DNA from: Halieaceae bacterium
Lineage (GTDB): Bacteria > Pseudomonadota > Gammaproteobacteria > Pseudomonadales > Halieaceae
Reading direction: 5' to 3'
NCBI GenBank assembly: GCA_902623175.1
Contig: CACNSR010000003.1
Location: 62,001 to 126,000 of the forward strand
DNA length: 64,000 nucleotides
Shown: positions 12,060 through 30,273 of the stretch, one piece after another
Layout: every line of letters starts with the position of its first letter
Numbering within the stretch: the stretch's first letter is position 1
The notes under the pieces: model-generated
What the model saw: only the letters and a program-made list of their open reading frames with translations
Told to the model about the DNA's origin: nothing
Database searches by the model: none
Translations under genes and position numbers: made by a program

Positions 12060-12067
12060 GGGGTGAT

Positions 12068-12370: not shown

Positions 12371-15264
12371 CGGAGCGACTGCCACTGCCCTACGGCAGCC
12401 GCATTAAGCGGGATGCGTTGGTGAGCGCGCGTTTTGACGGGCGCGAATTGCCCGCGTTGGAGGGTGATACCGTCGCCTCTGCCCTGGTAGCCAGCGGGCA
12501 GTGGGTGATCTCGCGGTCCTTTAAGTACCATCGACCGCGGGGCCCGCTGACGATGGCGGGGCAAGATGCCAACACGTTGGTGCAAACGCCGGCGGCGCCC
12601 AATCGCCTCGCGGACGAATTACCCATCACTGATTACCCCGAGACCACCGCTCAGAACATATCAGGCACGTTAATGGCGGATCGTAATGCCATCATTGATT
12701 GGTTTGGTCGCTTCCTGCCCGTAGGCTTTTATTACCGCGCTTTTTATAAGCCGTTCGGCGTTTGGCACTGGTGGGAGCGCATGATTCGCAAAGCGGCGGG
12801 GCTCGGCGTGGCCAATCTGTCTGCCAGCCCTCGATATCAGGACAAGCAATATCTGTTTTGCGATGTGGCGGTGGTTGGTGCGGGCCCTGCTGGTCTCAGC
12901 GCTGCGCTAAAGGCTGCGGAGGGCGGTGCCTCAGTCTTGCTCATTGATGAACAGTCCGAGTTGGGCGGTTCCCTGACCTATCATCGCTTTGCCATCGATA
13001 GTAGTGCGGTGCGAAGCGAGGCTGAGACGCTCATCGCCAACGTCGCATCGCATCCCCGTATCAAGGTGCTCACTCACGCCCTCTGTAACGGCTGGTTTAC
13101 CGATCATTATTTGCCCGTCATTCATGGCGATCGGCTGTTCAAGGTGCGCGCCAAAAGTTGTGTGCTGGCAACGGGCAGCAGTGAACAACACGTGGTCTTT
13201 CGCAACAACGATCTCCCCGGTGTGGTGCTCTGCAGTGCGCTGGAGCGCCTGATCAATCATTACGCGGTGGGGCCGCAGGGCGGGCTGGTGGTGCTTGCGG
13301 GGAATGACCAGGCCTGGATGACCGCGCTCACCGCGGCAGAGGCGGGTTTGTCTGTTGCGGCAGTCGTGGACTTACGTGACGCGCCGGATGACGCGGCGTT
13401 GCTAGCCGAGGCGAATGCGCGAGGCATGACGGTCCACATAGGTGCCACGGTATACACCGCACGACGCAGTGCTGAGAGTCAGTCACTGAGTGGTGTCGAT
13501 ATCCATCGCATCGATGCGCAGGGCGAGGTGGGTGAGTTGATTGCGCAACACGATTGCGCAGTGCTCGCCATGAGCGCGGGATTTATGCCGGCTTACCAGC
13601 TGGCGTGTCAGGCGGGGGCGAAACTCGACTACGACGACGACCGCGCAGCCTTTACGTTGAGCGGGCTTCCCGCAGGACTCCTTTTGGCCGGCAGCGTGAA
13701 CAGCACCCATTCGCTGGACGCGGTACTGGCGGACGGCCGCAACGCGGCGCGCGCCGCCCTGCGTAGCATGGGTATGACGACCGATGTGGATGAGTCCGTA
13801 ACTTGCGCGGCGCAAGTGAATCATCCCTGGCCTCTCTTTCCTCATCCCAAGGGCAGAGAATTTGTCGATTTCGACGAGGATCTGCAGATCAAAGACATTG
13901 TGAACGCGACCCGGCTGGGTTATCGCGATGTGCAGCTGGTGAAACGCTACTCGACGGTGGGTATGGGACCGTCGCAGGGCCGACATGCTGCGCTACCGAC
14001 TGCACGTTTGGTGGCAAAGGCCACTGTGCGCACCGTGAGTGAAACTGGCGTCACCACAGCGCGGCCTCCGGTCAAACCCGAGGCGCTGGGACACATTGCC
14101 GGCCGACGTTTACACCCCCATCGACACTCGGCGATCGCCGACCGGCACGATGCTGCTGGCGCGCAATGGATGCCCGCGGGTTTGTGGGGACGACCGGCAT
14201 TTTATGGTGAGCCAGATGACAAGCCGCGCCACGTGGCCGAGGAGGTTACGGCGGTGAGGACGGGCGTCGGGGTCATTGACGTCAGCACCCTGGGTGGTAT
14301 CGAGCTTCGCGGCGTCGACGCTGCCGAGTTCATGAATAGCTTTTATACCTATGGGTTCCTTAAGCAACCTGTGGGACGCACTCGCTATGCCGTAGTGGTG
14401 AGTGAACAAGGTGTTGTTATTGACGATGGCGTGGCCGCGCGGCTCGCGGAGGATCATTATTACGTCACCGCGACGACGGGCGGCGTCGACCGGGTGTATC
14501 GCGAGATGCTGCGCTGGAACGCGCAGTGGCGGTTATCCGTCGACATTGCCAACGTCACGGCGGCTTTCTCGGCGATCAATATTGCGGGGCCGGATTCCCG
14601 CGCAGTGCTCCAGGCATTGGGCTGTTCGATCGATCTCAGTGCCGACGCTTTCCCTTATCTCGGTTTTAGAGTGGGCGACGTGGCGGGCATCCCCGCGCGC
14701 CTGATGCGGGTTGGGTTTGTGGGGGAGCTGGGCTATGAGCTCCACGTGCCGAGTCTGTTTGCTGGGGCGTTGTGGGACGCGGTCATGGAGGCGGGTGCGC
14801 AATGGCACATCAAACCCTTTGGTGTCGAGGCGCAGCGTCTGCTGCGGTTAGAAAAGGGCCACATCATTGTTGGGCAGGACACGGACGGCATGACGCACCC
14901 GGGCGAAGTGGGGCTGGACTGGGCGATGAATCGCACCAAGCATGATTTTGTGGGGCGCCGCTCGGTGGATATTCTCGCGGCTTCCGCGCCCATCCGGCAG
15001 CTGGTCGGATTTTCGCTGGACCTCGAGGCACCCAAGCCATTGGAGGGGCACCTGGTGATTAAGGAAGGCGACATCGTGGGTAACGTCACGTCCTGTGAGA
15101 TTTCGCCCACGCTCAATCAGATCATTGGGCTGGCCTATGCGCAGCCCGATGACGCGAACCCGGGCGATCTTATTGCGATACGCACCGAGGGTGGTGTGCT
15201 GGTGCAGGCGCGGGTTGAAGCGTTGCCGTTTTACGACCCCGACAACGCGAGGCAAGCGCTGTGA
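12367..15264 (+). CDS. soxA: Sarcosine oxidase-type amine oxidase, alpha subunit
   Basis: A 965-residue fusion typical of the family. Domains in order: an N-terminal Fer2-like domain ending in RSFKYHRPRGP, a Rossmann NAD(+)-binding domain starting VAVVGAGPAGLSAAL near residue 160, a linker, and from about residue 580 a GcvT-like aminomethyltransferase/folate-binding domain (VGVIDVSTLGGIELRG, GFVGELGYELHVP, ending FYDPDNARQAL). Folate there accepts the methyl-derived one-carbon unit. The GTG start overlaps the soxD stop as GTGA, and its own stop overlaps soxG the same way, so the four subunits are translationally coupled. Confidence 0.93.
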   Translation: MTERLPLPYGSRIKRDALVSARFDGRELPALEGDTVASALVASGQWVISRSFKYHRPRGPLTMAGQDANTLVQTPAAPNRLADELPITDYPETTAQNISGTLMADRNAIIDWFGRFLPVGFYYRAFYKPFGVWHWWERMIRKAAGLGVANLSASPRYQDKQYLFCDVAVVGAGPAGLSAALKAAEGGASVLLIDEQSELGGSLTYHRFAIDSSAVRSEAETLIANVASHPRIKVLTHALCNGWFTDHYLPVIHGDRLFKVRAKSCVLATGSSEQHVVFRNNDLPGVVLCSALERLINHYAVGPQGGLVVLAGNDQAWMTALTAAEAGLSVAAVVDLRDAPDDAALLAEANARGMTVHIGATVYTARRSAESQSLSGVDIHRIDAQGEVGELIAQHDCAVLAMSAGFMPAYQLACQAGAKLDYDDDRAAFTLSGLPAGLLLAGSVNSTHSLDAVLADGRNAARAALRSMGMTTDVDESVTCAAQVNHPWPLFPHPKGREFVDFDEDLQIKDIVNATRLGYRDVQLVKRYSTVGMGPSQGRHAALPTARLVAKATVRTVSETGVTTARPPVKPEALGHIAGRRLHPHRHSAIADRHDAAGAQWMPAGLWGRPAFYGEPDDKPRHVAEEVTAVRTGVGVIDVSTLGGIELRGVDAAEFMNSFYTYGFLKQPVGRTRYAVVVSEQGVVIDDGVAARLAEDHYYVTATTGGVDRVYREMLRWNAQWRLSVDIANVTAAFSAINIAGPDSRAVLQALGCSIDLSADAFPYLGFRVGDVAGIPARLMRVGFVGELGYELHVPSLFAGALWDAVMEAGAQWHIKPFGVEAQRLLRLEKGHIIVGQDTDGMTHPGEVGLDWAMNRTKHDFVGRRSVDILAASAPIRQLVGFSLDLEAPKPLEGHLVIKEGDIVGNVTSCEISPTLNQIIGLAYAQPDDANPGDLIAIRTEGGVLVQARVEALPFYDPDNARQAL

Positions 15265-15818
15265 GCCTTCGTAGTCCGCTAGCAGGCTCTGGGGTGATCG
15301 AAGGCCCTGGCGGGCTTCGGCTTAATGATCTATCACTCGCGCGTCGAGAGGGTGTGCGTGGTGCCGGTGCTCGGGAATGGTTAATGGCTCAGGGGCACAC
15401 GTTGCCGGATGCGCCGAATCAGATTGTTGCCAGCGGTGTGTTAGGGTGGGTGATGTCACTAAGTCATCACGAGTTCTGGTTGTTGCAGCCGGATAGCGAG
15501 GCATCGTTAAGCCTACCGGCATCCAAGGCGGTCGCGGTAGGTGTCTGGCCGCTGTATTGCCAGCACAGTCATGCGTGGCTGCAGTTGGCAGGAGAGCCGC
15601 GGGACGAAATCATGGCAAAGCTCTGCGGCGTAGATCTCTCAGAGGCGGCGTTCCCGCTGGGCAGCGTGGCCCAGACGCAGGCCGCCCGGGTGTCGGTGAT
15701 CATCGCCGCCCATCAGAACCAAAACGGTCAACCCGTGTTTTCAATTTTAGTAGACCAATCCCTCGTGCGTTATCTGTGGGAGACGATTGAAGATGCGATG
15801 GGAGAGTGGCTCGAGTAG
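15261..15818 (+). CDS. soxG: Sarcosine oxidase-type amine oxidase, gamma subunit
   Basis: A 185-residue protein in the SoxG position with the family features: the N-terminal RSPLAG, a GcvT-like fold segment HEFWLLQPD, and a C-terminal Ser/Tyr-rich helix (DQSLVRYLWETIEDAM). It is a structural subunit of the heterotetramer. GTG at 15261 overlaps the soxA stop. The gene converges with an Ldh_2-type gene 10 bases away. Confidence 0.85.
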   Translation: MSLRSPLAGSGVIEGPGGLRLNDLSLARREGVRGAGAREWLMAQGHTLPDAPNQIVASGVLGWVMSLSHHEFWLLQPDSEASLSLPASKAVAVGVWPLYCQHSHAWLQLAGEPRDEIMAKLCGVDLSEAAFPLGSVAQTQAARVSVIIAAHQNQNGQPVFSILVDQSLVRYLWETIEDAMGEWLE

Positions 15819-17075: not shown

Positions 17076-17867
17076 CTACTGGTTTTTCCAAATCGGTGCT
17101 CTTTTTTCCAAAAACGCATTGATAGCCTCTCTCGCGTCAGCCGAACCTGCAACGAGCGCTTGTTGCCGGTCTTCCAGCGCCATAGCGGCATCCAGGGAGG
17201 GCGCGTCGACACTCAAGTTCAACCCATCCTTGGTTAAACGCAGCCCCATGGGTGACGTTGCCAGCATGTCTGCAACATACTGCTTGGCAGTATTGACGAG
17301 CTCCTGCTCGCTGACCACCTCGGAGACTAAATTTACCTTTAGTGCTCTTTCAGCGCTGATGAATTTCCCGGTCATCATCAAGTCGCTAGCAACTGATAAG
17401 CCGACGAGTCTGGGTAATAGGTAACTGCAACCCATATCGCATGCGGTTAAACCCGCTCGAATAAAGGCTGCATTCATTCTTGCAGTCGTCGCGGCTATCC
17501 GTATGTCTGAGGCGAGTGCGAGGCTAAATCCACCCCCGCAGGCAGCGCCTTGGATCAAAGCGATGATGGGCTGCGGACAGAGACGCATTGCTCGATAAAT
17601 ATCAGATATGTCCCGTTGCATTGCGAGCAGAGCCTGCGGTGATGCATCATCCCCCCAGCTTTCTGACTGCAGGTCTAGCCCTGCACAAAAAGCTTTGCCT
17701 TTTGCTTGAAGTACCACAATGCGCACATCGTGTCGGCCTTTGAGATCCTTAAACGTGTCGCTCAAAGCGCTTACCAAAGGCTTATTCATTGCATTAAGTG
17801 CGTTGGGTCGGTTGAGGGTTAACCAGAGTGTTTCACCTCTCAGCTCTTTTAGCAGTGCGTCGGTCAC
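17076..17867 (-). CDS. Enoyl-CoA hydratase/isomerase family protein of the mutase operon
   Basis: A 263-residue crotonase-fold enzyme. I place the start at the GTG at 17867 because a perfect GGAGGT lies six bases upstream; an ATG 13 codons earlier has no such site. Oxyanion segments are FCAGLDLQ and GAACGGGFSLALASD. The classical Glu pair is not conserved, but an Asp sits at the dienoyl-isomerase position (GLTACDMGCSYLLPR). It is last in the minus-strand operon with an acyl-CoA dehydrogenase and the B12 mutase, so it probably acts on an unsaturated acyl-CoA made after the rearrangement step. Confidence 0.85.
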   Translation of the reverse strand: MTDALLKELRGETLWLTLNRPNALNAMNKPLVSALSDTFKDLKGRHDVRIVVLQAKGKAFCAGLDLQSESWGDDASPQALLAMQRDISDIYRAMRLCPQPIIALIQGAACGGGFSLALASDIRIAATTARMNAAFIRAGLTACDMGCSYLLPRLVGLSVASDLMMTGKFISAERALKVNLVSEVVSEQELVNTAKQYVADMLATSPMGLRLTKDGLNLSVDAPSLDAAMALEDRQQALVAGSADAREAINAFLEKRAPIWKNQ

Positions 17868-17916
17868 AGTGTTACCTCCATCTTTGGTGGCAAATGTTTG
17901 ATTCAACGGAAGAAGA

Positions 17917-19053
17917 TTACAGTGAGCGTGCTATCAGTAGCCGCATGATCTCAGACGTGCCTCCATGAATGGTGTCGATGCGAGCGTCTTTATAGAGTTG
18001 AGCAATAGGGTACTCATTCATCCAGCCATAGCCACCGAAAAACTGTACGCATCGGTTTATGCCGTCTACCTCGCGTTCCGTGATCCAGAGTTTTGCCATC
18101 GACGCGGTTGCAGCATCCAACTCACCTTTGATCAGTAAATCAGTGCAGTGGTCTATGAAGGCCTTGCCAATGGTGACCTCCGTTTTAATGTCGGCTAACG
18201 AAAATGCAGTATTTTGAAAGTCGAATAATGACTGGCCAAAAGCCTGCCGTTCCTTGGTGTATTCAACGGTGAGATTGAGAGCGCGCTCAAGCATGCCCAG
18301 ACCCATCACGGCAATACCCAGTCGTTCTTGGGGTAACAGCTCCATCAGTTGGGCAAAACCCTTCCCGGGAACCCCTCCCAGCACATTGCTCATTGGAAGT
18401 CGGACATCCTCAAAAAAGAGCTCGGAAGTGTCCTGAGCGTCGCGCCCGACCTTGTCGAGATTTTTGCCCCGTGTGAATCCTGGCCGGTCGCCCTCTACTA
18501 AGAAAATCGAAATCTTATCTCGGCCGTCCTCCATTTCGGTTTTTGCACACAGCAATACCAAATCCGACATTTGGCCATTTGAAATAAACACCTTGCTACC
18601 ATTGATAATCCACTCGTCACCATCGCGAACCGCTCGGGTTCGCATGCCCTGCAGGTCGGATCCTGCGGCAGGCTCGGTCATCGCGATCGCTAAGATCGTC
18701 TCGCCAGAGACAACCTTGGGTAGCCACTGGTTTTTTTGGTCTGGTGTTCCATGCTCGATCAGGTAAGGGGCTGCGATCATGTTATGCACTGGCACGCCCC
18801 ATCCCTCCAGGCCGCGCTCGGCAAAGGCTTCCATAATTGCTCGCTCGTAGCGAAAATCCACGCCCAGACCGCCATGTTCTTCGGGCACCAGAACGCCGAG
18901 CATCCCAAACTCTCCGGCAGCCAACCAGGCCTCACGATCTACCTGCTTATTTTGATTCCAGCGTTCGATGGTCTCAGGTGGCGCAGTTGTGTCCAGAAAG
19001 GTAGCGAGGCTATTGTGAAAAATAGTCAGAGCTTCATCGTTTTGCGCGAGCAT
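17917..19053 (-). CDS. Acyl-CoA dehydrogenase of the mutase operon
   Basis: A 378-residue FAD-dependent acyl-CoA dehydrogenase passing electrons to ETF. Signatures: MTEPAAGSDLQGMRT, WIINGSKVFISNG, TKERQAFG, and C-terminal GGYGWMNEYPIAQLYKDARI. The MCAD-type catalytic Glu position reads HGGTSEI (Gly), while PQERLGIA carries a Glu where long-chain and isovaleryl-CoA dehydrogenases keep theirs. That points to a branched or long acyl-CoA substrate. It lies 24 bases downstream of the MeaB-like gene and 49 upstream of the crotonase gene. Confidence 0.92.
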   Translation of the reverse strand: MLAQNDEALTIFHNSLATFLDTTAPPETIERWNQNKQVDREAWLAAGEFGMLGVLVPEEHGGLGVDFRYERAIMEAFAERGLEGWGVPVHNMIAAPYLIEHGTPDQKNQWLPKVVSGETILAIAMTEPAAGSDLQGMRTRAVRDGDEWIINGSKVFISNGQMSDLVLLCAKTEMEDGRDKISIFLVEGDRPGFTRGKNLDKVGRDAQDTSELFFEDVRLPMSNVLGGVPGKGFAQLMELLPQERLGIAVMGLGMLERALNLTVEYTKERQAFGQSLFDFQNTAFSLADIKTEVTIGKAFIDHCTDLLIKGELDAATASMAKLWITEREVDGINRCVQFFGGYGWMNEYPIAQLYKDARIDTIHGGTSEIMRLLIARSL

Positions 19054-19077: not shown

Positions 19078-20031
19078 TCATTCGGGTTGGGATATGTTTG
19101 CGTACAGATCAGCTTGCAGCGCCCCAATGGACAGTTCACCCGCCAGTGCTCTCTCTACTTGAGCACTGCCGTGGTCACTGCAACAGTAGGACTCTATTCG
19201 AGCTTCACAACCGCTTTGCAATATTCTCATTAGCAAGCGACGACGTCTGGTGCGCAGTTTTTGCTCTTGAAGCCCGGTTGCCTGGGCGTCAGCTAAATAT
19301 GTCTCGATCCCTTGCCACAGCGCAGCGACACCGTCTTCATTGACAGCTGTGGTTTCGAAAATCTGGATAGGCACTGGGGACTGCAATAATGATAGAGAAT
19401 CTTGCAAATCGGCACGGGTCTGTTGAACACCGTCTTTGTCGGCTTTGTTAATAACGAAGACGTCTCCCGCTTCAGTGAGGCCCGCTTTGTTTGCCTGAAA
19501 GGTATCCCCCCAACCAGGATTGAGTACCACGGCTATCACCGTCGCGAGGTCCATGACGTCCAGTTCCACCTGACCAATGCCCAATGTTTCCACCAGTATC
19601 AGTGGCCAGCCGCAGGCTGCCAGCACCTGTGTCGCCGTTGCCGCAGCTCTCGCCAGCCCGCCGCTCTCTCCTTTTGACGCCATTGAGCGGATGAGCACCC
19701 GATCGCCTAAACCGTGGTTCTGCATGCGGACGCGATCACCGAGTAATGCACCGCCTGAAAAGGGCGATGTGGGGTCCACGGCCAGCACCGCGGTCCTGTC
19801 AAAGGAGCTGGTTGTGTGAGGCAGTAGTGCGCTAATGAGAGAAGACTTGCCTGCACCCGGCGGTCCAGTAACTCCTATCACAACCGATTCGGTCTCCTTG
19901 CTGGCCAGGAAAGTGCGTATCTCGGTTTCCGCGCGCGGGTCTCGTTCTATATGGCTAAGAAGACGGGCTAGGCTAGAGCGGTCTCCATCTAGAGCAGACG
20001 CGAGTAACGGCTGCGTCGTTGCCTCGGTCAT
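19078..20031 (-). CDS. meaB: MeaB/ArgK-type G3E GTPase, chaperone for the B12 mutase
   Basis: A 317-residue P-loop GTPase. Walker A is GVTGPPGAGKSS near residue 55; switch elements include VLAVDPTSPFSGGALLGDRVRM and RSMASKGESGGLA; VETLGIGQVE occupies the position where family members usually have ETVGVGQSE; NKAD is the guanine-specificity motif. Characterised relatives (MeaB, human MMAA) load and protect adenosylcobalamin-dependent acyl-CoA mutases. The gene directly follows the mutase small-subunit gene with a five-base gap, so it most likely serves this mutase. The usual second NKAD-proximal region and length are normal. Confidence 0.92.
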   Translation of the reverse strand: MTEATTQPLLASALDGDRSSLARLLSHIERDPRAETEIRTFLASKETESVVIGVTGPPGAGKSSLISALLPHTTSSFDRTAVLAVDPTSPFSGGALLGDRVRMQNHGLGDRVLIRSMASKGESGGLARAAATATQVLAACGWPLILVETLGIGQVELDVMDLATVIAVVLNPGWGDTFQANKAGLTEAGDVFVINKADKDGVQQTRADLQDSLSLLQSPVPIQIFETTAVNEDGVAALWQGIETYLADAQATGLQEQKLRTRRRRLLMRILQSGCEARIESYCCSDHGSAQVERALAGELSIGALQADLYANISQPE

Positions 20032-20036
20032 CGTTG

Positions 20037-20414
20037 TTACTTTGTGCCGGTAAGACGCTCGGCGGCGTCTACGATATCCGTTAATTGAGACCCGGGCGGG
20101 TAAACCTCTACTCCCAAGGCCTCAAGTTGCTTGGCGGCTCTAGGAGTAATTGTGCCGCCGGCAAATATCGGCAGTTCGGGGCGGACACGCTGCACACTCT
20201 CTATCGCTCTGATTGCCACATCAATGTGACCGCCGACATTAAGGCCTACCAGGTCAACGTCTTCATCTACCGCTGATGTTACGATGTCGTCTGTATTGGC
20301 CATGCCGATCATTATCACCTCAAAGCCTGCATCACGAAGCGCTCTGGCGACGATAGTTGGGCCGCGCCAGTGGCCGTCGAGGCCGGTTTTGGCCATCAGT
20401 ATTCGCTTCTGCAC
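20037..20414 (-). CDS. Acyl-CoA mutase small subunit, B12-binding domain
   Basis: A 125-residue cobalamin-binding domain made as a separate chain, as in 2-hydroxyisobutyryl-CoA and isobutyryl-CoA mutases. The D-G-H-x-x-G motif is present (TGLDGHWRG); its His (about residue 15) is the lower cobalt ligand. GLNVGGH replaces the common SSLSGAH, and FAGGTITP closes the fold. I start it at the GTG at 20414, which has GGGGAG six bases upstream, rather than at a TTG at 20435 that abuts the large-subunit stop. It sits between the large subunit and the MeaB-like gene. Confidence 0.93.
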   Translation of the reverse strand: MQKRILMAKTGLDGHWRGPTIVARALRDAGFEVIMIGMANTDDIVTSAVDEDVDLVGLNVGGHIDVAIRAIESVQRVRPELPIFAGGTITPRAAKQLEALGVEVYPPGSQLTDIVDAAERLTGTK

Positions 20415-20435
20415 TCTAGTCTCCCCAGCGCTCAA

Positions 20436-22067
20436 TCACGTCTGAATCGGCGTATTCCAGTTCCCAAAAACTTCTCTGTATACGTTACCGATTTCGCCCA
20501 GCGTGACTTCAGCCGACATCGCCTCCATCATTGCGGGCATGATATTTGTATCACTGCGACAATCAGCCTCGAGCTGCTTCAGAGCCGAGCTTGCAGCCTT
20601 CTCATGACGGGTTCTGAGCACGTCATTGAGACGCGCTGTTGCCACATCAAAGGCGTCATCGGTTCCCATAAAGCCATCTACCTCGAAGGGTGACTCGTCG
20701 TCCTGGAAGCAATTCACGCCGATCACCTGTTGGTCGCCGTTTTCCATGTCCATGAACTCTTGATATTGATTCTCTGCGGCGCGCGCGTGCAGCCACCCTG
20801 AATCCAAAGTGGCCAGATAGCCGCCTTGGTTTTGAATTTCCTCAAAAAACTCCCAAGCCTTCTCAGCTAGCTGAGCAGTTAGTGTTTCGACATAGTACGA
20901 ACCCCCCAACGGGTCCGTAACCTTGGCTATTCCTGTCTCCTCCTGAAGGATCTGCTGAACCCTCACCGACATTTGATGCGCATGTTCCGAAGGAATCGAT
21001 AGAGCTTCGTCATAACCTGATACGCCGAGTGACTGCACTCCGCCAAAAACCGCTCCAAGGGCCATTAAGGTGCCTCTGACAATATTATTAAGCGGCTGTT
21101 GGTAGGTCATTTTTGATCCCGCGGTAACGCAGTGGATTCGCAGATTGGCCACTTTAGGGTCGGTTATGTCGTAGCGCTCTCGTAGGAGGTCAGCCCACAT
21201 CAGTCTGGCGGCTCTCATTTTGCAGGCTTCCTCGATAAATTCGATCGATGCTCTGAAGCTCACACCACCGCAGGCCTTGGCGGCTTTAGTCAGATCAACG
21301 CTCCCCCTTCTCTTGATTTCGTCGAGATATTCAACGGCATTGGCGAACAGTACGCCCAACTCCTGATCTGGACTAAGACCAGTGTCGGCCGCGTTATAGC
21401 CGGCTATTGAGACTGGTACCCAGTAAGGCAAATGGCGATCGCAGAATTCGATGATATCGGCATTAAACCGGAGACCTGGCAGAGTTGGGATTTGCTCCTT
21501 GGTCACACACCCCAAGTACGTTAGATTGAAATCGCTCTGGCCAGTGCCAGGTAATTTTGCAAGATCAAACCCTCGTTGCTTGGCAACGGTCCAGTATGAG
21601 GCGAGAGCGAAGGGCGCGTGTTGAACAACAGCGCCCCCCGCGTGGCCGAAGCTGCTCTCCACAGGCAAGCCGTCCATACATATTGCTGTGTCGCGAACAC
21701 TTTGCATGACGGCCCCGGTTAATCCAACATCTTCGCGCCGCGCCACAACTTCTGGATGGTCGACGTTGTAGCAGTGATCGGCGGTGTTGCGATCATGCTC
21801 CATGATGAATCCCGTCTCGCCATTTTTCAGCAGAAACTTAATGCGCTCATTCTCGTCTTCAGGTTTACCGAAGCCGCTGAGTTGGAAGATTCTCCAGGGC
21901 TTACTGCGATATCCGGATGGGTGAAAGCCACGATGGTAAGGCGCCTCGCCAGGTGCTGCCGCGGCCCGACCCCTGTGTTCATCAGGAATATCATCACCGG
22001 TATAAAATGATTTGAGCTCTATGCCGGAGCGCGAGAAGACCGCCTCGTCGGTGGATTTTTTTTGCAT
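20436..22067 (-). CDS. Divergent adenosylcobalamin-dependent acyl-CoA mutase, large subunit
   Basis: A 543-residue TIM-barrel subunit of the methylmalonyl-CoA mutase superfamily that would interconvert branched and linear acyl-CoAs by radical 1,2-migration. Family landmarks: PWRIFQLSGFG, VDHPEV, PVSIAGYN, HCVTAGSKMTYQQPLNN, GYDEALSIPSEHA and DPLGGSYYVE. By hand alignment, the residue that is Tyr in methylmalonyl-CoA mutase, Phe in isobutyryl-CoA mutase and Ile in 2-hydroxyisobutyryl-CoA mutase is Leu63. The position that is Asp in the last enzyme is Glu90. The near-invariant His of SGYH is Asn225, and the CoA-carboxylate Arg is not seen in its usual place. So this is not one of the named mutases. 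First gene of the minus-strand operon. Confidence 0.9.
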   Translation of the reverse strand: MQKKSTDEAVFSRSGIELKSFYTGDDIPDEHRGRAAAAPGEAPYHRGFHPSGYRSKPWRIFQLSGFGKPEDENERIKFLLKNGETGFIMEHDRNTADHCYNVDHPEVVARREDVGLTGAVMQSVRDTAICMDGLPVESSFGHAGGAVVQHAPFALASYWTVAKQRGFDLAKLPGTGQSDFNLTYLGCVTKEQIPTLPGLRFNADIIEFCDRHLPYWVPVSIAGYNAADTGLSPDQELGVLFANAVEYLDEIKRRGSVDLTKAAKACGGVSFRASIEFIEEACKMRAARLMWADLLRERYDITDPKVANLRIHCVTAGSKMTYQQPLNNIVRGTLMALGAVFGGVQSLGVSGYDEALSIPSEHAHQMSVRVQQILQEETGIAKVTDPLGGSYYVETLTAQLAEKAWEFFEEIQNQGGYLATLDSGWLHARAAENQYQEFMDMENGDQQVIGVNCFQDDESPFEVDGFMGTDDAFDVATARLNDVLRTRHEKAASSALKQLEADCRSDTNIMPAMMEAMSAEVTLGEIGNVYREVFGNWNTPIQT

Positions 22068-22151: not shown

Positions 22152-22183
22152 CTCCAGTCATAACTACAACAAAGAGGCCTTTG

Positions 22184-23362
22184 ATGTTTTCTGCTAACAG
22201 CGCCACGCTTGGTTTAACAGCGACAGAACGAGTGCATATTGGCCGCAGAGCGGCTGAGGCTCTGGCAGAGGAAGTCCAGACGCTGAGTGCACAGCGCGTC
22301 TTTTTGCTAGTTAGTACGACCCTCAGAACTAATACCACTGAGATCAGTGATATCGAGGCAGCTTTGGGTGATTCCATAGCCTGTGTTTTCGATGGCATCA
22401 AGGCCCATGGGCCCAGATCAGATGTTCTCGCTGCGCTGGAGGCAGCCCGCGCTGTTGATGCCGACCTCGTCATTACTGTGGGCGGTGGTTCCGTCACCGA
22501 CGCGGGCAAAGTTGTTGCCTTGGGGTTAAAACACGGTTTTGAAACGCATGAGGATTTCGAGGGGTTCTATGTCTATGTCGATGACGCTGGTGAAACGGTC
22601 GTTCCTCAATTTGACGCGCCAGAGATAAGAGTTATTTGTTGTCCGACGACTTTGTCAGGTGGTGAATTCAACACCATGGGTGGGGTGACGGATGACAAAG
22701 AGAATAAAAAACAGGGCTATACGCACAGAATGATGGCGCCGATCGCGATCGTTCTTGACCCTGCTCTCACAATACATACGCCCGAATGGCTGTGGTTCTC
22801 AACCGGCGTCAGAGCCCTGGATCACGCCCTTGAAGCTTTGGGCTCCACACACTCAAACCATTTTTGTGACGGCATCGCAGGCAGTGCGCTCCGATTGTTA
22901 GGTAGTGCACTGCCGCAGGTAAAAGCCGATGGCACGGATCTGGATGCGCGTCTGCGATGCCAGGTAGGTGCTTGGCAATCTATGATTCCAGTGATCGGTG
23001 GCGTGCCCATGGGCGCGAGTCATGCAATCGGGCACGTGCTGGGCGGCACCGCTGATGTGCCTCACGGTTATTGCTCTTGCGTAATGGCCCCCTCGGTGCT
23101 TGCTTTCAATCAATCCGTTAACGGTGAGAAGCAGAAGCAAATCAGTGCCTGTCTGGGCCAGCCGGACCGTGCAGCAAGCGAGATTGTCGATGAATTCATT
23201 ACGGGGCTAGGAATGCCGCGGAGCCTGACCGCTGTGGGCGTCACTGAAGATCAATTGGACCTGATCGCCGAGTACACCATGCTGGATTTTTGGTCTCGCA
23301 CCAACCCCAGAGAGATAAGTGGTCCCAAAGATGTGCGCGGTATTTTAGAGATGGCGCTTTAA
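22184..23362 (+). CDS. Iron-ADH-superfamily oxidoreductase (maleylacetate reductase/HOT-like)
   Basis: A 392-residue member of the group-III dehydrogenase fold. NAD-binding GGGSVTDAGK and PTTLSGGEFN are clear. Of the four metal-site residues, the helix motif usually D-x-x-x-H reads VRALDH, so the Asp ligand is replaced by Arg while the His positions (ASHAIGH, VPHG) remain. That pattern is nearer to maleylacetate reductases, which need no iron, than to alcohol dehydrogenases. ATG 22184 is preferred over the TTG one codon earlier because of AGAGG at 22173. It heads the plus-strand operon, and probably oxidises or reduces a pathway intermediate. Confidence 0.85.
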   Translation: MFSANSATLGLTATERVHIGRRAAEALAEEVQTLSAQRVFLLVSTTLRTNTTEISDIEAALGDSIACVFDGIKAHGPRSDVLAALEAARAVDADLVITVGGGSVTDAGKVVALGLKHGFETHEDFEGFYVYVDDAGETVVPQFDAPEIRVICCPTTLSGGEFNTMGGVTDDKENKKQGYTHRMMAPIAIVLDPALTIHTPEWLWFSTGVRALDHALEALGSTHSNHFCDGIAGSALRLLGSALPQVKADGTDLDARLRCQVGAWQSMIPVIGGVPMGASHAIGHVLGGTADVPHGYCSCVMAPSVLAFNQSVNGEKQKQISACLGQPDRAASEIVDEFITGLGMPRSLTAVGVTEDQLDLIAEYTMLDFWSRTNPREISGPKDVRGILEMAL

Positions 23363-23365
23363 AGC

Positions 23366-24079
23366 ATGATTAACGCGACCCTCCAGCCTGACTTTGATCT
23401 TAAAGATGAAGTGTCAGACTTTAAGAAGAAAAGAATTCGTGAAGAGGCCTGCAACCTGTTCTACGAGCTGGGTTACGAGAGCACGACGCTCGACGCCGTA
23501 GCGAAACGTCTCAAGGTAACCAAACCCTTTTTATACAAGCATTATGACAATAAGGGAGAGCTACTCTTCGATATTTGTCGCACCGGTATCGCGCTCTCTC
23601 TTGATGCAGTGAGTGCTGCATGCTCCCAGCCGCGATCCTCCACTGAGAGATTGCAGTCCCTCGCTGAATCGGTACTGGAGGTCATTTTCGAGTATCAAAA
23701 ATTTATTGTGGTTTACGCGAGAGAGGAGAAAAACCTGCGGGCCGAGGAGGCGAGAAAAATCAGAGAGCAGCGGAAGCTGTTCGATCATCAGGTAGCTGAA
23801 CTGCTTCGCGAGGGCGACCGCACGGGTGAGTTTCAGGTCTCTGACCCGCTCTTAACCGCCAACACCATTGGCGGAGTAATCACCTGGGTTGCGCTCTGGT
23901 ATTCGCCGGATGGCAAGCGATCGAAGCTGGAAATACTGACTCATGTACTAGAGATGATTTTCACGATCGTTGCCTCAAAAAAGGTTCTCCGCCCATTAGG
24001 GGGTTCAACTGGCCAACTCGAAAATCTCTCTCCCATACGAGCCATTAGCCCCGTGGGAGGCAAGCCCGATGAGCGTTGA
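23366..24079 (+). CDS. TetR/AcrR-family transcriptional regulator
   Basis: A 237-residue dimeric repressor type. The helix-turn-helix is in the first 70 residues (EEACNLFYELGYESTTLDAVA, then KVTKPFLYKHYDNKGEL), followed by an all-helical ligand domain. It lies 3 bases after the dehydrogenase gene and overlaps the CoA-ligase gene by 11 bases. It likely controls both divergent operons through the palindrome at 22135, with an acyl-CoA or the growth substrate as inducer; that is inference. Confidence 0.92.
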   Translation: MINATLQPDFDLKDEVSDFKKKRIREEACNLFYELGYESTTLDAVAKRLKVTKPFLYKHYDNKGELLFDICRTGIALSLDAVSAACSQPRSSTERLQSLAESVLEVIFEYQKFIVVYAREEKNLRAEEARKIREQRKLFDHQVAELLREGDRTGEFQVSDPLLTANTIGGVITWVALWYSPDGKRSKLEILTHVLEMIFTIVASKKVLRPLGGSTGQLENLSPIRAISPVGGKPDER

Positions 24080-25694
24080 GCAAGCAGCGACCACAGATCC
24101 TAGAGTGTTGCCAAGAGAGCGTTGCGTTACCCGCTATTTGCTGGACGACCTTGCGAAGACGCAGCCAGAAAAAGAGTTTGCCGTATTCGAGGACGGAGAG
24201 GTTTGGTCTTACGAGGTGGTTAGGGAGAAAGTCAGGGCCTTGGCGGCGGGCTTCGCCGAGAATGGCGTTGAGCAGGGTGATCATGTTGCCGTATGGATGT
24301 TTGATAGCAAGGAAGCCATTCTGACTTTCTTTGCCATCAATTACTTGGGCGCTGTATTCGTTCCCCTCAATACCGCTTATAAGGGGCAGGTGCTCAGTCA
24401 TGTTTTAGACGTTTCAGACGCGACCGTGATGGTTGCTCATGGTCAATTACTGGAGCGCCTTAATGCAGTAGAGGCAGCGCAGATTGCCAAAGTCATTCAT
24501 CTAGGCGATAACACGGCCGCAACCGATTATGAGTTTGTAGATTTTTCAGCCGTCACCAGCGACGCGTCTGAGCCCCCCGATTTACTCAAACCTATTGAGC
24601 CGTGGGATACGCAGTCGATCATCTTTACCTCTGGGACAACGGGCCCGTCCAAGGGTGTGCTGTCGTCTTACCTCCACATCTTTACTAACGCCGGGCCGGA
24701 AACGTGGCATTTTGTAACTGGCGAGGATCGTTTTCTCATCAACATGCCTATCTTTCATATAGGTGGCATGGGTGTGATCTTTGTCATGCTATGCCGAGGC
24801 GGATCGATCGCTGTGATGGACGGTTTCGACACCGAGAAGTTTTGGCCTTTTGTCAGGGAGAGCCGCACCAGTGCCTTTTTCCTGCTCGGAGTGATGACCA
24901 CGTTTTTGTTAAAACAAGAACCCTCCGAGCATGACAAGGACCATAGTGTCCGCCTGGCATTCATGGTGCCGTTAACTGAGACCTGCACCGAGTTTTATGA
25001 GCGGTTTGGGATTGACGTTTACACAATTTTTAATATGACCGAAATCTCGTCGCCCATTGTCTCCGAGCCCAATCCGACCAAGCGCGGTACCTGCGGTAAA
25101 AAAAGGGATGGTGTGGACGTCAGGCTCGTTGATGAAAATGACTGCGAGGTAGCGCTTGGGGAGATCGGTGAAATGATTGTGAGGACCGATCGACCGTGGG
25201 GTATGAATAGCGGTTACTACAAAAATCCGGTGGCTACCGCGGAGGCGTGGCGCAACGGGTGGTTTCACACGGGAGATTGCTTTCGGCAGGACGAAGAGGG
25301 CTACTTTTACTTCGTTGACCGGATGAAAGATGCGATGCGTCGTCGCGGGGAGAACATTTCATCTTTTGAGGTGGAGGCTGAGGTCGTTGCCTACCCCGAT
25401 GTCCGGGAAGCTGCCGCCTATGCTGTGCCGAGCGACCTAGGCGAAGATGATGTAATGATTTCTGTCGCTCCTGTGGCGGGCAAGGCTATTGACCAGACTA
25501 CCCTCATGAATTTTTTGGGTGACAGAATGCCCTATTTCATGGTGCCGAGGTACATCAGGGTTCTTGAGGAATTGCCTAAAACGCCGTCATCCAAAGTCAT
25601 GAAGCACGTCCTGAGATCTGAGGGCGTTACACCGGATACTTGGGATCGTGAACAGCACAACATCAGTTTTAAAAGAGAGAAAAAAGTTAGTTAG
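24069..25694 (+). CDS. Acyl-CoA synthetase (AMP-forming)
   Basis: A 541-residue ANL-superfamily ligase that activates a carboxylic acid to its CoA thioester using ATP. The P-loop-like motif is IIFTSGTTGPSKG near residue 195; the adenylate motif is IFNMTEIS; HTGDCFRQDEEGYFYFVDRMKD and the C-terminal lysine region TPSSKVMK are all present. ATG 24069 overlaps the regulator gene. The gene would make the CoA ester fed into the mutase and dehydrogenase of the opposite arm. Its sequence resembles the CaiC/crotonobetaine-ligase branch more than FadD, but the substrate cannot be fixed. Confidence 0.9.
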   Translation: MSVEQAATTDPRVLPRERCVTRYLLDDLAKTQPEKEFAVFEDGEVWSYEVVREKVRALAAGFAENGVEQGDHVAVWMFDSKEAILTFFAINYLGAVFVPLNTAYKGQVLSHVLDVSDATVMVAHGQLLERLNAVEAAQIAKVIHLGDNTAATDYEFVDFSAVTSDASEPPDLLKPIEPWDTQSIIFTSGTTGPSKGVLSSYLHIFTNAGPETWHFVTGEDRFLINMPIFHIGGMGVIFVMLCRGGSIAVMDGFDTEKFWPFVRESRTSAFFLLGVMTTFLLKQEPSEHDKDHSVRLAFMVPLTETCTEFYERFGIDVYTIFNMTEISSPIVSEPNPTKRGTCGKKRDGVDVRLVDENDCEVALGEIGEMIVRTDRPWGMNSGYYKNPVATAEAWRNGWFHTGDCFRQDEEGYFYFVDRMKDAMRRRGENISSFEVEAEVVAYPDVREAAAYAVPSDLGEDDVMISVAPVAGKAIDQTTLMNFLGDRMPYFMVPRYIRVLEELPKTPSSKVMKHVLRSEGVTPDTWDREQHNISFKREKKVS

Positions 25695-25735
25695 CTATTC
25701 GAAAACTATCCAATCGATGTGAAAGGGGAGTGACC

Positions 25736-27934
25736 ATGAGAAAGAAAAATCATGCGCGAATACTGAGTTTAGGGGTGATCTTTTTAACCGGTTCTGTGAG
25801 TGTCCTTGCGCAGGACAACGCTTTAGAGGAAGTGGTGGTGACCGCCACCAAACGTTCTGTTGCGCTCCAAGACCTCGCGGGATCTGCCAACGTTTTGGGC
25901 GCTGATAAGTTAGGCCCCGGTGGTATTCAGGAAGTGCGTGACATGCAGGTTGATATACCGAACCTGTCTTTGGGCGATCAATTTGGTTTCGCTCGAGTCT
26001 TCATGCGTGGCATCGGTATGACCAGTATTGACATTGGCGGCGAGGGCGCAGTGGCATTTCTCCAGGACGGCGCGATTGTTCCTCGCCCAGCAGCTCAGTT
26101 AATGGGTATGTTTGATCTAGATCAGGTCGAGGTTCTGCGAGGTCCGCAAGGGACTCTTTACGGTCGTGGTGCCACAGCAGGCGCAATTAATATGGTGACT
26201 GCAAAGCCTGGCAAAGAGCTTGGTGGATACTTGAGTGTGACGGCGGGTAACTACGGCCTTGCGCAGTTTAAGGGCGCCATAGATGTGCCGATGGGCGATG
26301 CGGTGTCGATGCGACTGGCGGGAAGTCTGGACAGCAGGGATGGCTACGGCAATAACATTTTTACCGGGTCGGACATCAATGATCGGGATGCCAGTGCGTA
26401 CCGCGCAACGTTCGTCTATGACGCTGGTGGGCCCCTAACGGCAACTCTCTCTGCTCAATACTATGAGGAAGACGACAATAACTATGCCTTCAGTTATTTC
26501 GGCCAGTCCGAGGGTTCGAGCATACCTGTGCCCTTTGGAGTGCCCATTCTTGGCGGCAACACCGTAGGTATGGTGGGAGGTGGATTTTATGATATCAACT
26601 CCGACCAGGAGCCTATTAACGATCGCGATGGGCAATTGATCAACCTTACTATTGATTATGCTTTTAACGACCGCTGGGGTATCAAATCCATTACCTCCTC
26701 TCAGAGTATGGATCGCTTTCTGAGAGATGACCTGGACTCAACGGATGCCAACCTGTTTGGTCAGAATAACTACACCGAAGAGAGCGACTCGTTTGGACAG
26801 GAGCTGATCCTCAACTACTCGGCAGACCGGCTCGATGTGCTGGGTGGGGTGATGTATTTTGAAGAGGATCTGTATGGCGAAGTCAGAGTTCCTTTGACTA
26901 ATTTGTGTTTCTTGCTTGCACCTGCAGCTTGCGGGACCCCGGTTGGTGATTTCCTCAATGGAGGCAATTACCTGCAAGACGGCGATGTTGATATTGAAGC
27001 CTGGGGTGCTTATGTCGAAGCGAACTACAGTATCTCTGATAAATGGTCAGTGATTGCCGGTCTGCGCTACAACTATGAGGAGAGAGATGGAACTGGCTCT
27101 TTCATTTTTGATGCGATCTCTCTCAATGTTCCGACCAACCAGCGAGAGAGTTGGAATGATCTAACCCCCAGAATTACGCTGCAATACTCTCCAAACGACA
27201 ACATGCTTCTCTATGCGACTTATACAGAAGCGTTTAAGTCGGGGGTGATAAACACGGGTAGCACCAGCCCGCCGCTCGACCCGGAGACTGTCGATGCCTT
27301 TGAGGTGGGTCTGAAAGGGCAAAACGCGAGCGGGACGCTACGTTACTCCGTCGCAGCATTTTTCTATGACTATCAGGACATGCAGATTTCCTTTGTGGAT
27401 GAGACCAGCACCGTCTCGACAGTTAATGCGGCAGAAGCGGAAAATTCAGGGATTGAACTAGAAGTCGACGGTAGCCTAGGTAACGGTTTCGCGTTTGATT
27501 TTTATCTCACATACCTCAATGCTGAGTATCAGGAGTTTTTCAATGGTGATTATGCCAATGGCTTTGCGATCACTGACCTCAGTGGCAATACGCTCCCTAA
27601 CGCACCCGAGAGCACAGCAAAGCTGGGACTAACGTGGGAGGGCGCTGTGGGCGGCGGCACGTTGACTGTTCGGGGCGAGGCTTACTACCAGGATGATGTG
27701 TACTTCACGGAGTGGAACCGAGAGGATGCCTACCAAAAATCCTACGAGCAAATTAACGCATCGGTAGATTATTCATGGAATGACCAGTGGTTGTTGAGCC
27801 TGTGGGGTCGTAACTTAAGTGACGAAGAAGTGATGTCTAACAACATCATCACTGCGCCACTATATGATTCGCTTCGGGTAGGCGCAGTGCTTCCCCCTCG
27901 CACCTACGGAGCGACCGTTACCTATCAGTTCTAG
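25736..27934 (+). CDS. TonB-dependent outer-membrane receptor
   Basis: A 732-residue active outer-membrane importer. Signal peptide with LGVIFLTGSVSVLAQ, then the TonB box EEVVVTATKR, plug domain (VEVLRGPQGTLYGRGATAGAINMVT) and a 22-strand barrel ending in aromatic F (YQF). ATG 25736 is favoured over GTG 25730 because AAGGGGAG ends five bases before it. The position inside the ligase/P450 operon suggests it imports the hydrophobic or bulky growth substrate rather than a siderophore. Confidence 0.93.
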   Translation: MRKKNHARILSLGVIFLTGSVSVLAQDNALEEVVVTATKRSVALQDLAGSANVLGADKLGPGGIQEVRDMQVDIPNLSLGDQFGFARVFMRGIGMTSIDIGGEGAVAFLQDGAIVPRPAAQLMGMFDLDQVEVLRGPQGTLYGRGATAGAINMVTAKPGKELGGYLSVTAGNYGLAQFKGAIDVPMGDAVSMRLAGSLDSRDGYGNNIFTGSDINDRDASAYRATFVYDAGGPLTATLSAQYYEEDDNNYAFSYFGQSEGSSIPVPFGVPILGGNTVGMVGGGFYDINSDQEPINDRDGQLINLTIDYAFNDRWGIKSITSSQSMDRFLRDDLDSTDANLFGQNNYTEESDSFGQELILNYSADRLDVLGGVMYFEEDLYGEVRVPLTNLCFLLAPAACGTPVGDFLNGGNYLQDGDVDIEAWGAYVEANYSISDKWSVIAGLRYNYEERDGTGSFIFDAISLNVPTNQRESWNDLTPRITLQYSPNDNMLLYATYTEAFKSGVINTGSTSPPLDPETVDAFEVGLKGQNASGTLRYSVAAFFYDYQDMQISFVDETSTVSTVNAAEAENSGIELEVDGSLGNGFAFDFYLTYLNAEYQEFFNGDYANGFAITDLSGNTLPNAPESTAKLGLTWEGAVGGGTLTVRGEAYYQDDVYFTEWNREDAYQKSYEQINASVDYSWNDQWLLSLWGRNLSDEEVMSNNIITAPLYDSLRVGAVLPPRTYGATVTYQF

Positions 27935-29193: not shown

Positions 29194-30273
29194 ATGATGC
29201 CGACTGAAGAACGCCAGAAGCTCGCTCTGGGTTTATTCATGCCCAATTGTTCTAATATGCCCTCGATCTCGACCCATCGCGTCGTCAAAGATCAATGGAC
29301 ATACCAGCATAACGAGTCTCTTGCGCTAGCTGCAGAAGGTTATGGCTTTGAATTTTTGTTCCCAGTCTCGCGTTGGCGAGGTTTCGGCGGGGAGACCAAT
29401 TTTCTGGGTACGTCGCTAGAGACCACGACCTGGGCAGCCGCTCTATTGCGAGCCACTAGTTCTATCAATGTGTTCTCCACTGTCCATATCCCTCTCTTTC
29501 ACCCCTTTGTCGTTGCCAAGATGGGAGCCACCCTCTCACACATGAGCGGTAACAGATGGGGGCTGAATGTCGTGAGCGGTTGGAGCGAGAGAGAGTTCGG
29601 CATGATGGGTATCTCTCTCGCAGAGCACGCTCGTCGGTACGAGCGGACAAGTTGTTTCGTCGAAATTTTAAAAAAATTATGGTCTGCGGAAGATCAGCCA
29701 TTTGACTACGAATGCGACTGGTACTCAGTCAGTGGAGGAGAGTCCTCTCCTATACCCGATGTGCCTCCTATGATTGCCAATGCTGGCGTATCGGATGACG
29801 CAAAAATTATGACGGCGCGATTGTGCGATTGGGCCTTTATCTCTACTCCGTCAGTCGACGCGGTAGGCTCAATCATTGACGACATCGCTCTAAAGGCCGA
29901 AAGTTTTGGGCGCTCAGTCAAAACTGCGATCTTCCCTTTCATGATCTGGGGAGAATCCCGAGCCGAAGCCGAGGACCGGCTTGCGTCGATTATCTCTGAG
30001 AAGGATGAGGTCGCTACAGCAAACTGGCTTCATGACCTATCCGCTGGCAGCGGCTCTTTTGACTCCTTCACAAGTGATATGTTGGCGGCTTCTGGTGGTG
30101 GTGTGCACATGGTTGGCAGTGCTGCCGATGTTGCAGAACAACTCATCGAAGCACACCGAGCCGGCGTCAGCGCGGTGATGCTAACGTTTCCTGAGTACCT
30201 GGACGATTTGCATCGATTCGCAAAAGAAATAAAACCAGCGCTTGTAAAAGCCGATTGTATTGCCGCAAATTAG
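29194..30273 (+). CDS. RutA-like luciferase-type flavin monooxygenase
   Basis: A 359-residue TIM-barrel FMN-dependent monooxygenase. STHRVVKDQWTYQHN, WRGFGGETNF, GNRWGLNVVSGWSEREF and the C-terminal AVMLTFPEYLDDLHRF follow the RutA/DszA/SfnG branch, some of which use a flavin-N5-peroxide to cleave amide, C-S or C-halogen bonds. The Asn of GLNVVSGW and the Thr of FSTVHIP match RutA active-site positions by my recall. The ATG follows directly on the P450 stop (TGAATG). It probably catalyses a second oxygenation in the same pathway. A 213-base gap follows before a convergent gene. Confidence 0.82.
   Translation: MMPTEERQKLALGLFMPNCSNMPSISTHRVVKDQWTYQHNESLALAAEGYGFEFLFPVSRWRGFGGETNFLGTSLETTTWAAALLRATSSINVFSTVHIPLFHPFVVAKMGATLSHMSGNRWGLNVVSGWSEREFGMMGISLAEHARRYERTSCFVEILKKLWSAEDQPFDYECDWYSVSGGESSPIPDVPPMIANAGVSDDAKIMTARLCDWAFISTPSVDAVGSIIDDIALKAESFGRSVKTAIFPFMIWGESRAEAEDRLASIISEKDEVATANWLHDLSAGSGSFDSFTSDMLAASGGGVHMVGSAADVAEQLIEAHRAGVSAVMLTFPEYLDDLHRFAKEIKPALVKADCIAAN

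Follow-up and report, generated by a model that had tools for sequence, protein, structure and literature searches.

A mutase locus in a Halieaceae genome

The window analysed here is the whole of a 64,000-nucleotide stretch of contig CACNSR010000003.1 (assembly GCA_902623175.1, a Halieaceae bacterium), and it encodes a B12-dependent acyl-coenzyme A (CoA) mutase made of a large subunit and a separate B12-binding small subunit. On the mutase strand these two genes are followed by those for a MeaB-type GTPase chaperone, an acyl-CoA dehydrogenase and an enoyl-CoA hydratase, in that order (Table 1). An earlier note, made from the sequence, had read a full large subunit, a separate B12 domain and a MeaB-like GTPase here, and matches to PF01642 (spanning profile positions 3-512 of 512), PF02310 and PF03308 agree with that reading; the GTPase scores slightly below the NCBIfam MeaB equivalog cut-off (228.5 versus 240.75 bits). 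Of six comparisons of non-synonymous with synonymous change, the two with the nearest relatives gave a ratio (dN/dS) of 0.03 and the remaining four, saturated at synonymous sites, yielded no value; this low non-synonymous change argues for a working gene. One other PF01642 gene is present in the source genome (85% complete); it spans 724 codons as an open frame and bears the canonical Tyr/His/Arg signature, indicating that ordinary methylmalonyl-CoA mutase (MCM) is supplied from there.

Table 1. Genes of the mutase cluster and nearby genes, in window coordinates.
Feature	Position	Strand	Basis or remark
B12-dependent acyl-CoA mutase, large subunit (543 aa)	20436..22067	-	PF01642 E=2e-138; TIGR00641 above cut-off
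B12-binding small subunit (132 aa)	20037..20435	-	PF02310 E=3.6e-19; DGHWRG motif
MeaB-type GTPase chaperone	19078..20031	-	PF03308 E=1.9e-63
Acyl-CoA dehydrogenase	17917..19053	-	PF00441/PF02770/PF02771; closest solved structures are long-chain acyl-CoA dehydrogenases
Enoyl-CoA hydratase/isomerase	17076..17906	-	PF00378 E=2.2e-50
Iron-containing alcohol dehydrogenase (Fe-ADH)	22181..23362	+	PF00465/PF25137; divergent to mutase operon
TetR-family regulator	23366..24079	+	PF00440, PF17932
AMP-forming acyl-CoA ligase	24069..25694	+	PF00501 E=9.6e-61
TonB-dependent receptor	25730..27934	+	PF00593 E=4e-48, PF07715
Cytochrome P450	27964..29193	+	PF00067 E=3.3e-34
Luciferase-like FMN monooxygenase (RutA/SfnG-like)	29194..30273	+	PF00296 E=8e-47; PDB matches
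Short-chain dehydrogenase/reductase (SDR)	30487-31242	-	outside cluster
FMO-like flavin monooxygenase, possibly Baeyer-Villiger type	32312-33934	-	outside cluster
Sarcosine oxidase complex-like genes	10812-15818	+	DAO-type subunit; alpha subunit with SO_alpha_A3 and GCV_T domains; upstream of cluster

Active site of the large subunit

The large subunit was aligned by phmmer to the solved chains of 2-hydroxyisobutyryl-CoA mutase (HCM), human MCM and P. shermanii MCM, and the residues were then followed through a clade of 70 non-redundant homologues (delimited below). Leu63 aligns with MCM Tyr89 and HCM Ile90, Glu90 with MCM Ala116 and HCM Asp117, and Asn225, present in 70 of 70 clade sequences, with MCM His244 and HCM His245; these three positions are those that the earlier note had assigned by eye to the specificity residue, the HCM Asp and the His of the SGYH motif. 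Its statement that the region of the carboxylate-binding Arg reads Cys needs amending, in that the column of MCM Arg207 and HCM Gln208 is occupied by Val188 and the clade-invariant Cys187 lies one column earlier, the window protein being longer by one residue in this stretch.

The Tyr89/Arg207 pair of MCM is absent from all 70 sequences (Leu63 and Val188 in the window), and neither this pair nor a His emerged at these positions in the alignment. Nor does the clade carry the HCM set of Ile/Val90, Asp117 and Gln208, for which it has Leu, Glu (Lys in 7 of the 70) and Val188, and the window enzyme likewise lacks the Phe89, Gln207 and His244 of isobutyryl-CoA mutase (ICM) and IcmF. Also invariant in all 70 are Arg272, where MCM has Gly289 and HCM Val290, and Gly348, and position 270 is Ser or Asn (MCM Phe287). 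The equivalents of MCM Thr195, Gln197, Tyr243, Arg326, His328, Gln361, Ser362 and Glu370 are retained in all 70. As judged from alignment, the substrate pocket appears to be rebuilt and to match none of the characterised relatives compared.

An AlphaFold model of the large subunit (pLDDT 81, pTM 0.85) has HCM (4r3u) as its best PDB match, with a TM score of 0.84, and HCM is also the top solved structure by sequence (315 bits). In this family the substrate channel is lined by barrel strands and strand ends. The model puts Leu63 immediately after strand 59-62, Glu90 two residues past strand 86-88, and Arg272, Val314 and Gly348 within strands 268-273, 310-315 and 346-349, so that Arg272 is predicted to lie on a barrel strand; confidence is low in segments 54-58 and 351-364.

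In the small subunit the cobalamin motif DxHxxG reads DGHWRG. All 71 aligned small subunits (that of the window and those of 70 of the 74 clade loci introduced below) carry Asp20, Gly21, His22, Trp23, Arg24, Gly25, Gly93 and Gly94; of these, Asp20, His22 and Gly25 are the motif positions. His22 is the putative cobalt ligand by homology, and its retention had been correctly noted before. Trp23 replaces the Asp of HCM-type and Marinobacter small subunits and of the B12-binding protein 2yxb, and this residue after the predicted cobalt His is a further mark of the clade.

Extent and phylogeny of the clade

The 70 large subunits of the clade are at least 52% identical to the window protein and come from Halieaceae, other Proteobacteria and Actinobacteria. 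Beyond the clade (at least 52% identity to the window protein, or at least 55% to the query of the class searches) nothing was found until 36-38% identity, intermediates having been sought in 58 genomes (relatives and the source), 390 of the order, 398 of the phylum, 198 of the class of an actinobacterial host and 190 of the class of an alphaproteobacterial host, with strict E-value limits of 1e-100 to 1e-105 in the order, phylum and both class searches. Copies at least 76% identical were present in 11 of the 58 genomes by whole-protein search and in 7 of the 390 genomes of the order sample, the source genome counted each time, and in the phylum sample the source genome alone of 398 gave a match at E 1e-105.

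A scan of named genomes with the patterns LSGFGKPE, which contains Leu63, or WRIFQ yielded 74 loci, 54-98% identical. Their hosts are Luminiphilus, Haliea, Kineobactrum, Pseudohaliea and NOR5-3 (all of which we take to be Halieaceae), other Proteobacteria, and Acidimicrobiia, Ilumatobacteraceae and Acidithrix ferrooxidans. Since the scan patterns contain Leu63 and its neighbours, the invariance of that region is partly selected. Clade members recovered by whole-protein searches, without patterns, likewise carry Leu63 and Asn225. A pattern-free search of the class of Acidithrix also found homologues in 8 further genomes, at 55-59% identity to the Acidithrix protein, and those retained after thinning keep Leu63, Asn225, Arg272 and Gly348, several of them with Lys90.

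For comparison of active-site signatures, thinning at 97% identity, which followed a length filter, took 195 sequences to 138, and a few truncated clade loci are missing from the 70 as a result. The signature Leu-(Glu/Lys)-Cys-Asn-Arg-Gly is common to 70 of the 138. Other rows read YAVH..|R for MCM, [I/V]DAH..|Q for HCM (IDAHVH|Q or VDAHIH|Q), FA[A/G]H..|Q (FAxHxH|Q) for ICM/IcmF-like rows, YASHNQ|R for rows resembling ethylmalonyl-CoA mutase (ECM; L139-L141) and YAAH..|R for some further uncharacterised rows; known sequences underpin only the HCM and MCM rows, and the names of the ICM-, IcmF- and ECM-like rows rest on signature and length.

In a maximum-likelihood tree 70 of 70 sequences fall in one clade, with a support of 74 alone and of 100 when joined with L128, a second mutase gene of Haliea alexandrii. 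A second tree, of 94 sequences with 13 rows retained for the clade and 8 for MCM, places the clade apart from HCM, MCM, ICM-like and ECM-like rows (own node support 60) and joins it, with a support of 100, to the VECQ group described in the last section. Deeper nodes are weak in both trees, and the support values are those printed after midpoint re-rooting, where labels near the root may shift. The window enzyme lies outside the HCM clade in both trees, the ECM-like rows stand apart from its clade, and in neither tree is the clade nested within a characterised mutase group that was compared. By signature and tree, the clade thus holds as separate from the MCM, HCM, ICM/IcmF-like and ECM-like rows, and to that extent the view in the earlier note that the enzyme is unlike any named mutase stands; RcmA, IaaG and the mutases of anaerobic alkane degradation lay outside this comparison. 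No description of the clade was among the literature matches listed, from a search outside which most subscription papers fall.

Gene neighbourhood across clade loci

Neighbours were counted by tblastn with the window proteins (at least 40% identity over half the length) at the 74 loci, of which many are incomplete; short or truncated loci were kept in the denominators, and at this threshold 4 of the 74 lack a small subunit and 3 a large one. For the window genes this count replaced an earlier one of non-overlapping open reading frames (ORFs), which undercounts GC-rich loci because antisense ORFs displaced genes, and actinobacterial, lactonase-like and thiolase genes were counted by ORF clusters only. 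The Halieaceae-like, other proteobacterial and actinobacterial groups were assigned by hand on the basis of record titles and identity, several titles of metagenome-assembled genomes (MAGs) looking wrong (one says Klebsiella).

Relatives of the large subunit were found at 71 loci, of the small subunit at 70, of MeaB at 52, of Fe-ADH at 51, of TetR and of the ligase at 49 each (the ligases with a median identity of 70%), of the TonB receptor at 39, of the enoyl-CoA hydratase at 35 and of the FMN monooxygenase at 18, the last confined to the Halieaceae-like group. Among the 42 loci of at least 17 kb, all 42 have both subunits, 30 the ligase, 30 MeaB, 29 Fe-ADH, 29 TetR and 26 the TonB receptor. 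Fe-ADH, TetR, acyl-CoA ligase, TonB receptor and MeaB are the usual proteobacterial partners of the mutase. The SDR lying outside the window cluster has relatives at none of the 74 clade loci at this threshold.

Other genes recur more locally. Sequence clustering gives SDR, thiolase, FadJ-like and acyl-CoA dehydrogenase genes at L068, L074 and L078, a profile check covering the thiolase and SDR of L068. Some loci encode a metallo-beta-lactamase-fold protein that is weakly lactonase-like, and L079 has PaaA-like, luciferase-like and CaiB-like genes. At L083, L085 and L088 an AstE/AspA-like hydrolase gene lies directly upstream of the mutase, the L083 copy showing weak similarity to DoeB, an ectoine enzyme. 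A route through pantothenate, ectoine or an amide was considered and rejected, as the cluster to which this hydrolase gene belongs was seen at none of the 61 non-actinobacterial loci. A nitroreductase adjoining some actinobacterial mutases falls below the BluB cut-off and was not taken as BluB. Ipd-like steroid genes were also considered at L098 and rejected: its NMO protein matches FabK below the cut-off, and its CoA-transferase matches glutaconate CoA-transferase (53.9 bits) ahead of chains 6co6 (37.6) and 6coj (34.9), which we take to be of the IpdA type.

Proposed function and alternatives

A separate clade, the cobalamin motif, purifying selection, an adjoining MeaB, a conserved operon containing an acyl-CoA ligase, and the presence of a canonical MCM in another part of the genome together give good support to an active but distinct mutase, as had been suggested from the sequence, although activity itself is something we infer, as we do a CoA-ester substrate, the direction of the reaction and the alpha-quaternary nature of that substrate. 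The bulky or polar branched acyl-CoA put forward in the earlier note is likewise a conjectural substrate. Our proposal, which we hold to be about as likely as not, is that the protein is an adenosylcobalamin-dependent acyl-CoA mutase of a distinct clade that opens an alpha-blocked acyl-CoA, most likely a 2-hydroxy-2-alkyl or 2,2-dialkyl one, to beta-oxidation. On chemical grounds a mutase is required only if the alpha carbon is blocked, and the presence of ligase, mutase and beta-oxidation enzymes together fits a pathway that activates, rearranges and degrades. The cluster would probably let the cell degrade a branched compound resistant to ordinary fatty-acid breakdown. Its substrate may be imported by the TonB receptor and, in some hosts, oxygenated by the P450 and the FMN monooxygenase, followed by alcohol oxidation by Fe-ADH and CoA activation by the AMP-forming ligase; the mutase, formed by its two subunits and loaded by its own MeaB, would then move the CoA-thioester carbonyl from the blocked alpha carbon to the neighbouring carbon, and acyl-CoA dehydrogenase, hydratase, 3-hydroxyacyl-CoA dehydrogenase and thiolase would complete the route. 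In the active site, Arg272 and Asn225 could replace polar contacts lost with Arg207 and His244. A more far-reaching version, which we regard as possible rather than probable, is that this is a new activity, a mutase that works without His244 and Arg207 by using Asn225 and Arg272 on an alpha-quaternary acyl-CoA handled by no characterised mutase, and one branch of a hidden radiation that gives beta-oxidation access to natural organic matter of branched and alicyclic kinds.

Several observations weigh against the main proposal. Four of the presumed CoA contacts of MCM are altered in the clade, with Arg59 for Thr85 and Phe61 for Arg87 in 70 of 70 sequences, Val217 for Asn236 in 69 and Val314 for Gln330 in 67. 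Position 90 is Glu in 63 members and Lys in the other 7 of the 70 (e.g., L088, L148 and L154), which form a single subgroup in the tree with co-varying changes at 266, 361 and 427, indicating that the clade can do without an acid to meet a hydroxyl. The acyl-CoA dehydrogenase is present at only 12 of the 74 loci and the P450 at 22, many loci being cut short. Finally, none of the 13 actinobacterial loci has a relative of Fe-ADH, TetR, the ligase or the TonB receptor at the threshold used, and only 3 have MeaB; weaker relatives are an Fe-ADH-cluster gene at one of the 13 and, at L080, a TetR whose C-terminal part is of the same type. These loci have other genes instead, including another AMP-forming ligase (11 loci), an ABC ATPase (5), an AstE/AspA-like hydrolase (5) and a possible periplasmic binding protein (7 of 13, below the Pfam cut-off in L086).

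The nearest known pathway logic is that of the 2-hydroxyisobutyrate route, and as Leu63 and Glu90 are the nearest analogue of HCM Ile90/Asp117, our guess is tilted towards a hydroxylated branch. HcmAB of Aquincola tertiaricarbonis (4r3u) likewise has separate large and small subunits with an aliphatic residue at position 89/90 and an acid at 116/117, and the Methylibium HCM locus shares an acyl-CoA ligase, MeaB and the mutase subunits with the window while also holding a 3-hydroxybutyryl-CoA dehydrogenase. We nevertheless think it quite unlikely that the enzyme is a functional HCM, interconverting 2-hydroxyisobutyryl-CoA and 3-hydroxybutyryl-CoA, from a separate lineage. HCM is its top PDB match by both sequence and fold, and some loci show the same logic of ligase, SDR and thiolase, but its identity to HCM (34%) is no higher than that shared with several Tyr/Arg mutases (which reach 37%), it has Glu (or Lys in the clade) for Asp117, Val188 for Gln208 and Asn for His245, the Val290 position is changed, Arg272, Gly348 and the small-subunit Trp23 are new with respect to HCM, and the TonB receptor suggests a larger substrate. 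A separate lineage of this kind has a reported precedent in RcmAB of Kyrpidia tusciae, although RcmA presumably has Val at position 117, unlike the Glu or Lys of the clade. RcmAB is reported to be distantly related to HcmAB and to catalyse the same kind of reaction (PMC7176365), and the isobutylene ibc clusters of Mycolicibacterium are described as comprising monooxygenase, epoxide hydrolase, alcohol and aldehyde dehydrogenases, ligase and mutase, together with an auxiliary protein, 3-hydroxybutyryl-CoA dehydrogenase and thiolase (PMC13188929).

The substrate could instead be an acyl-CoA that is alicyclic or derived from isoprenoids and bears a gem-dimethyl or tertiary carbon (from terpenoid, steroid-like or carboxyl-rich alicyclic matter), reached after ring opening. 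P450, FMN monooxygenase and weakly lactonase-like metallo-beta-lactamase-fold neighbours at some loci, the FMO-like monooxygenase and SDR beside the window cluster and the PaaA-like, luciferase-like and CaiB-like genes of L079 are in its favour, as is the argument, made for SAR202, that paralog families of FMN monooxygenases, SDRs and CoA-transferases oxidise alicyclic matter (PMC5395668). Since no oxygenase gene of the window is conserved across the clade and the genes examined include no ring-cleavage enzyme common to the loci, we consider this source of the substrate unlikely. That the enzyme is an ordinary mutase of the methylmalonyl-, ethylmalonyl- or (aryl/alkyl)succinyl-CoA type would be hard to reconcile with the data, and we give this reading the least credence. 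The Pfam family is the same, and MCM (human and Propionibacterium) shares with the window enzyme the barrel fold, the equivalents of Glu370, Gln197, His328, Gln361 and Ser362 and the DxHxxG site; IaaGH, the benzylmalonyl-CoA mutase of Aromatoleum, whose IaaG is reported to work on phenylsuccinyl/benzylmalonyl-CoA (PMC8360864), lies outside our comparison. The Tyr89/Arg207 pair of the MCM and ECM-like rows is, however, missing in 70 of 70 clade sequences, together with His244, the clade falls outside both groups of rows in the trees, the B12 domain is on its own chain, the genomic context differs and the genome carries a separate, canonical MCM. ICM and IcmF, which act on non-carboxylated branched acyl-CoA, pivalyl-CoA among them, are like the window enzyme in that Arg207 is replaced; ICM-like rows carry Phe, Gln and His, unlike the window, and IcmF is fused to its GTPase. 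The losses of His244, Arg207, Tyr89 and several presumed CoA contacts might also mark a non-catalytic or regulatory homologue, such as the beta subunit of MCM, but this is very unlikely given the Glu370, Gln197, His328 and Ser362 equivalents in 70 of 70 large subunits, the cobalamin ligand motif in 71 of 71 small subunits, the adjoining MeaB and the lack of a second large subunit in the window operon, and a dead subunit of the MCM-beta kind was rejected on the conserved motifs.

To our knowledge, few B12 acyl-CoA mutase activities have been characterised, and few known bacterial routes open acids with a quaternary alpha carbon. If Asn does stand in for the catalytic His in a functioning enzyme, natural variants offer a test of the role generally assigned to that His, and Kineobactrum sediminis, Haliea alexandrii, Pseudohaliea rubra and Acidithrix ferrooxidans are named isolates with a clade gene in which the substrate could be sought.

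A wider set of mutases lacking His244

Outside the clade, 65 of the 68 sequences of the signature set have His at MCM position 244, and the earlier note had treated this His as almost invariant. Two further hosts of clade members, both taken from their record titles to be marine alphaproteobacterial MAGs, correct that view: G1180 (host of L066, JASLMH010000011.1) and G1190 (host of L098, NZDS01000159.1). PF01642 matches number 3-6 per genome in 11 of 13 further hosts of clade members, and 19 in G1180 and 18 in G1190 (some of them fragments); in the 190-genome class sample, first-look candidates among the matches listed number 21 in G1190 versus at most 8 in other genomes, no more than 7 per genome having been scored. 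The His244 equivalent is absent from 8 of the 16 sequences read from G1180 (the clade member included) and from 7 of the 14 read from G1190 (the clade member left out), and 10 sequences in each have neither Arg nor Gln in the Arg207 column. With half of the sequences read lacking it, His244 does not define the superfamily. Many of these active-site signatures are absent from the characterised mutases compared, and several (LACNSH, AVCNSH and YAAHYF) are common to both MAGs, which argues against assembly noise. As read from these alignments, loss of His244 is a repeated feature of uncharacterised clades, and the window enzyme belongs to a larger set that is still unexplored. Together, a conserved clade whose catalytic residues differ and genomes with 18-19 mutase matches suggest a chemistry more diverse than has been described.

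One such uncharacterised group is the VECQ type (Val-Glu-Cys-Gln; L128, L203-L207, L210, L211 and L222/L270), found in Haliea alexandrii (L128, signature VECQNT|V), in other genomes of the window's order, in the host of L065 and on Sphingobium plasmids. It is nearest to the window clade in both trees (100) and shares Glu at 90 and Cys at 187, and differs from it in reading Gln in the His column, in lacking both Arg272 and Gly348 and in its long branches; the small subunit beside L128 has Thr after the cobalt His, where that of the clade has Trp. On the Sphingobium plasmids its neighbours are P450, ferredoxin, phosphotransferase-family, acyl-CoA dehydrogenase, 3-hydroxyacyl-CoA dehydrogenase, MeaB and TonB genes, of which the P450, TonB and MeaB neighbours are also those of the window locus.

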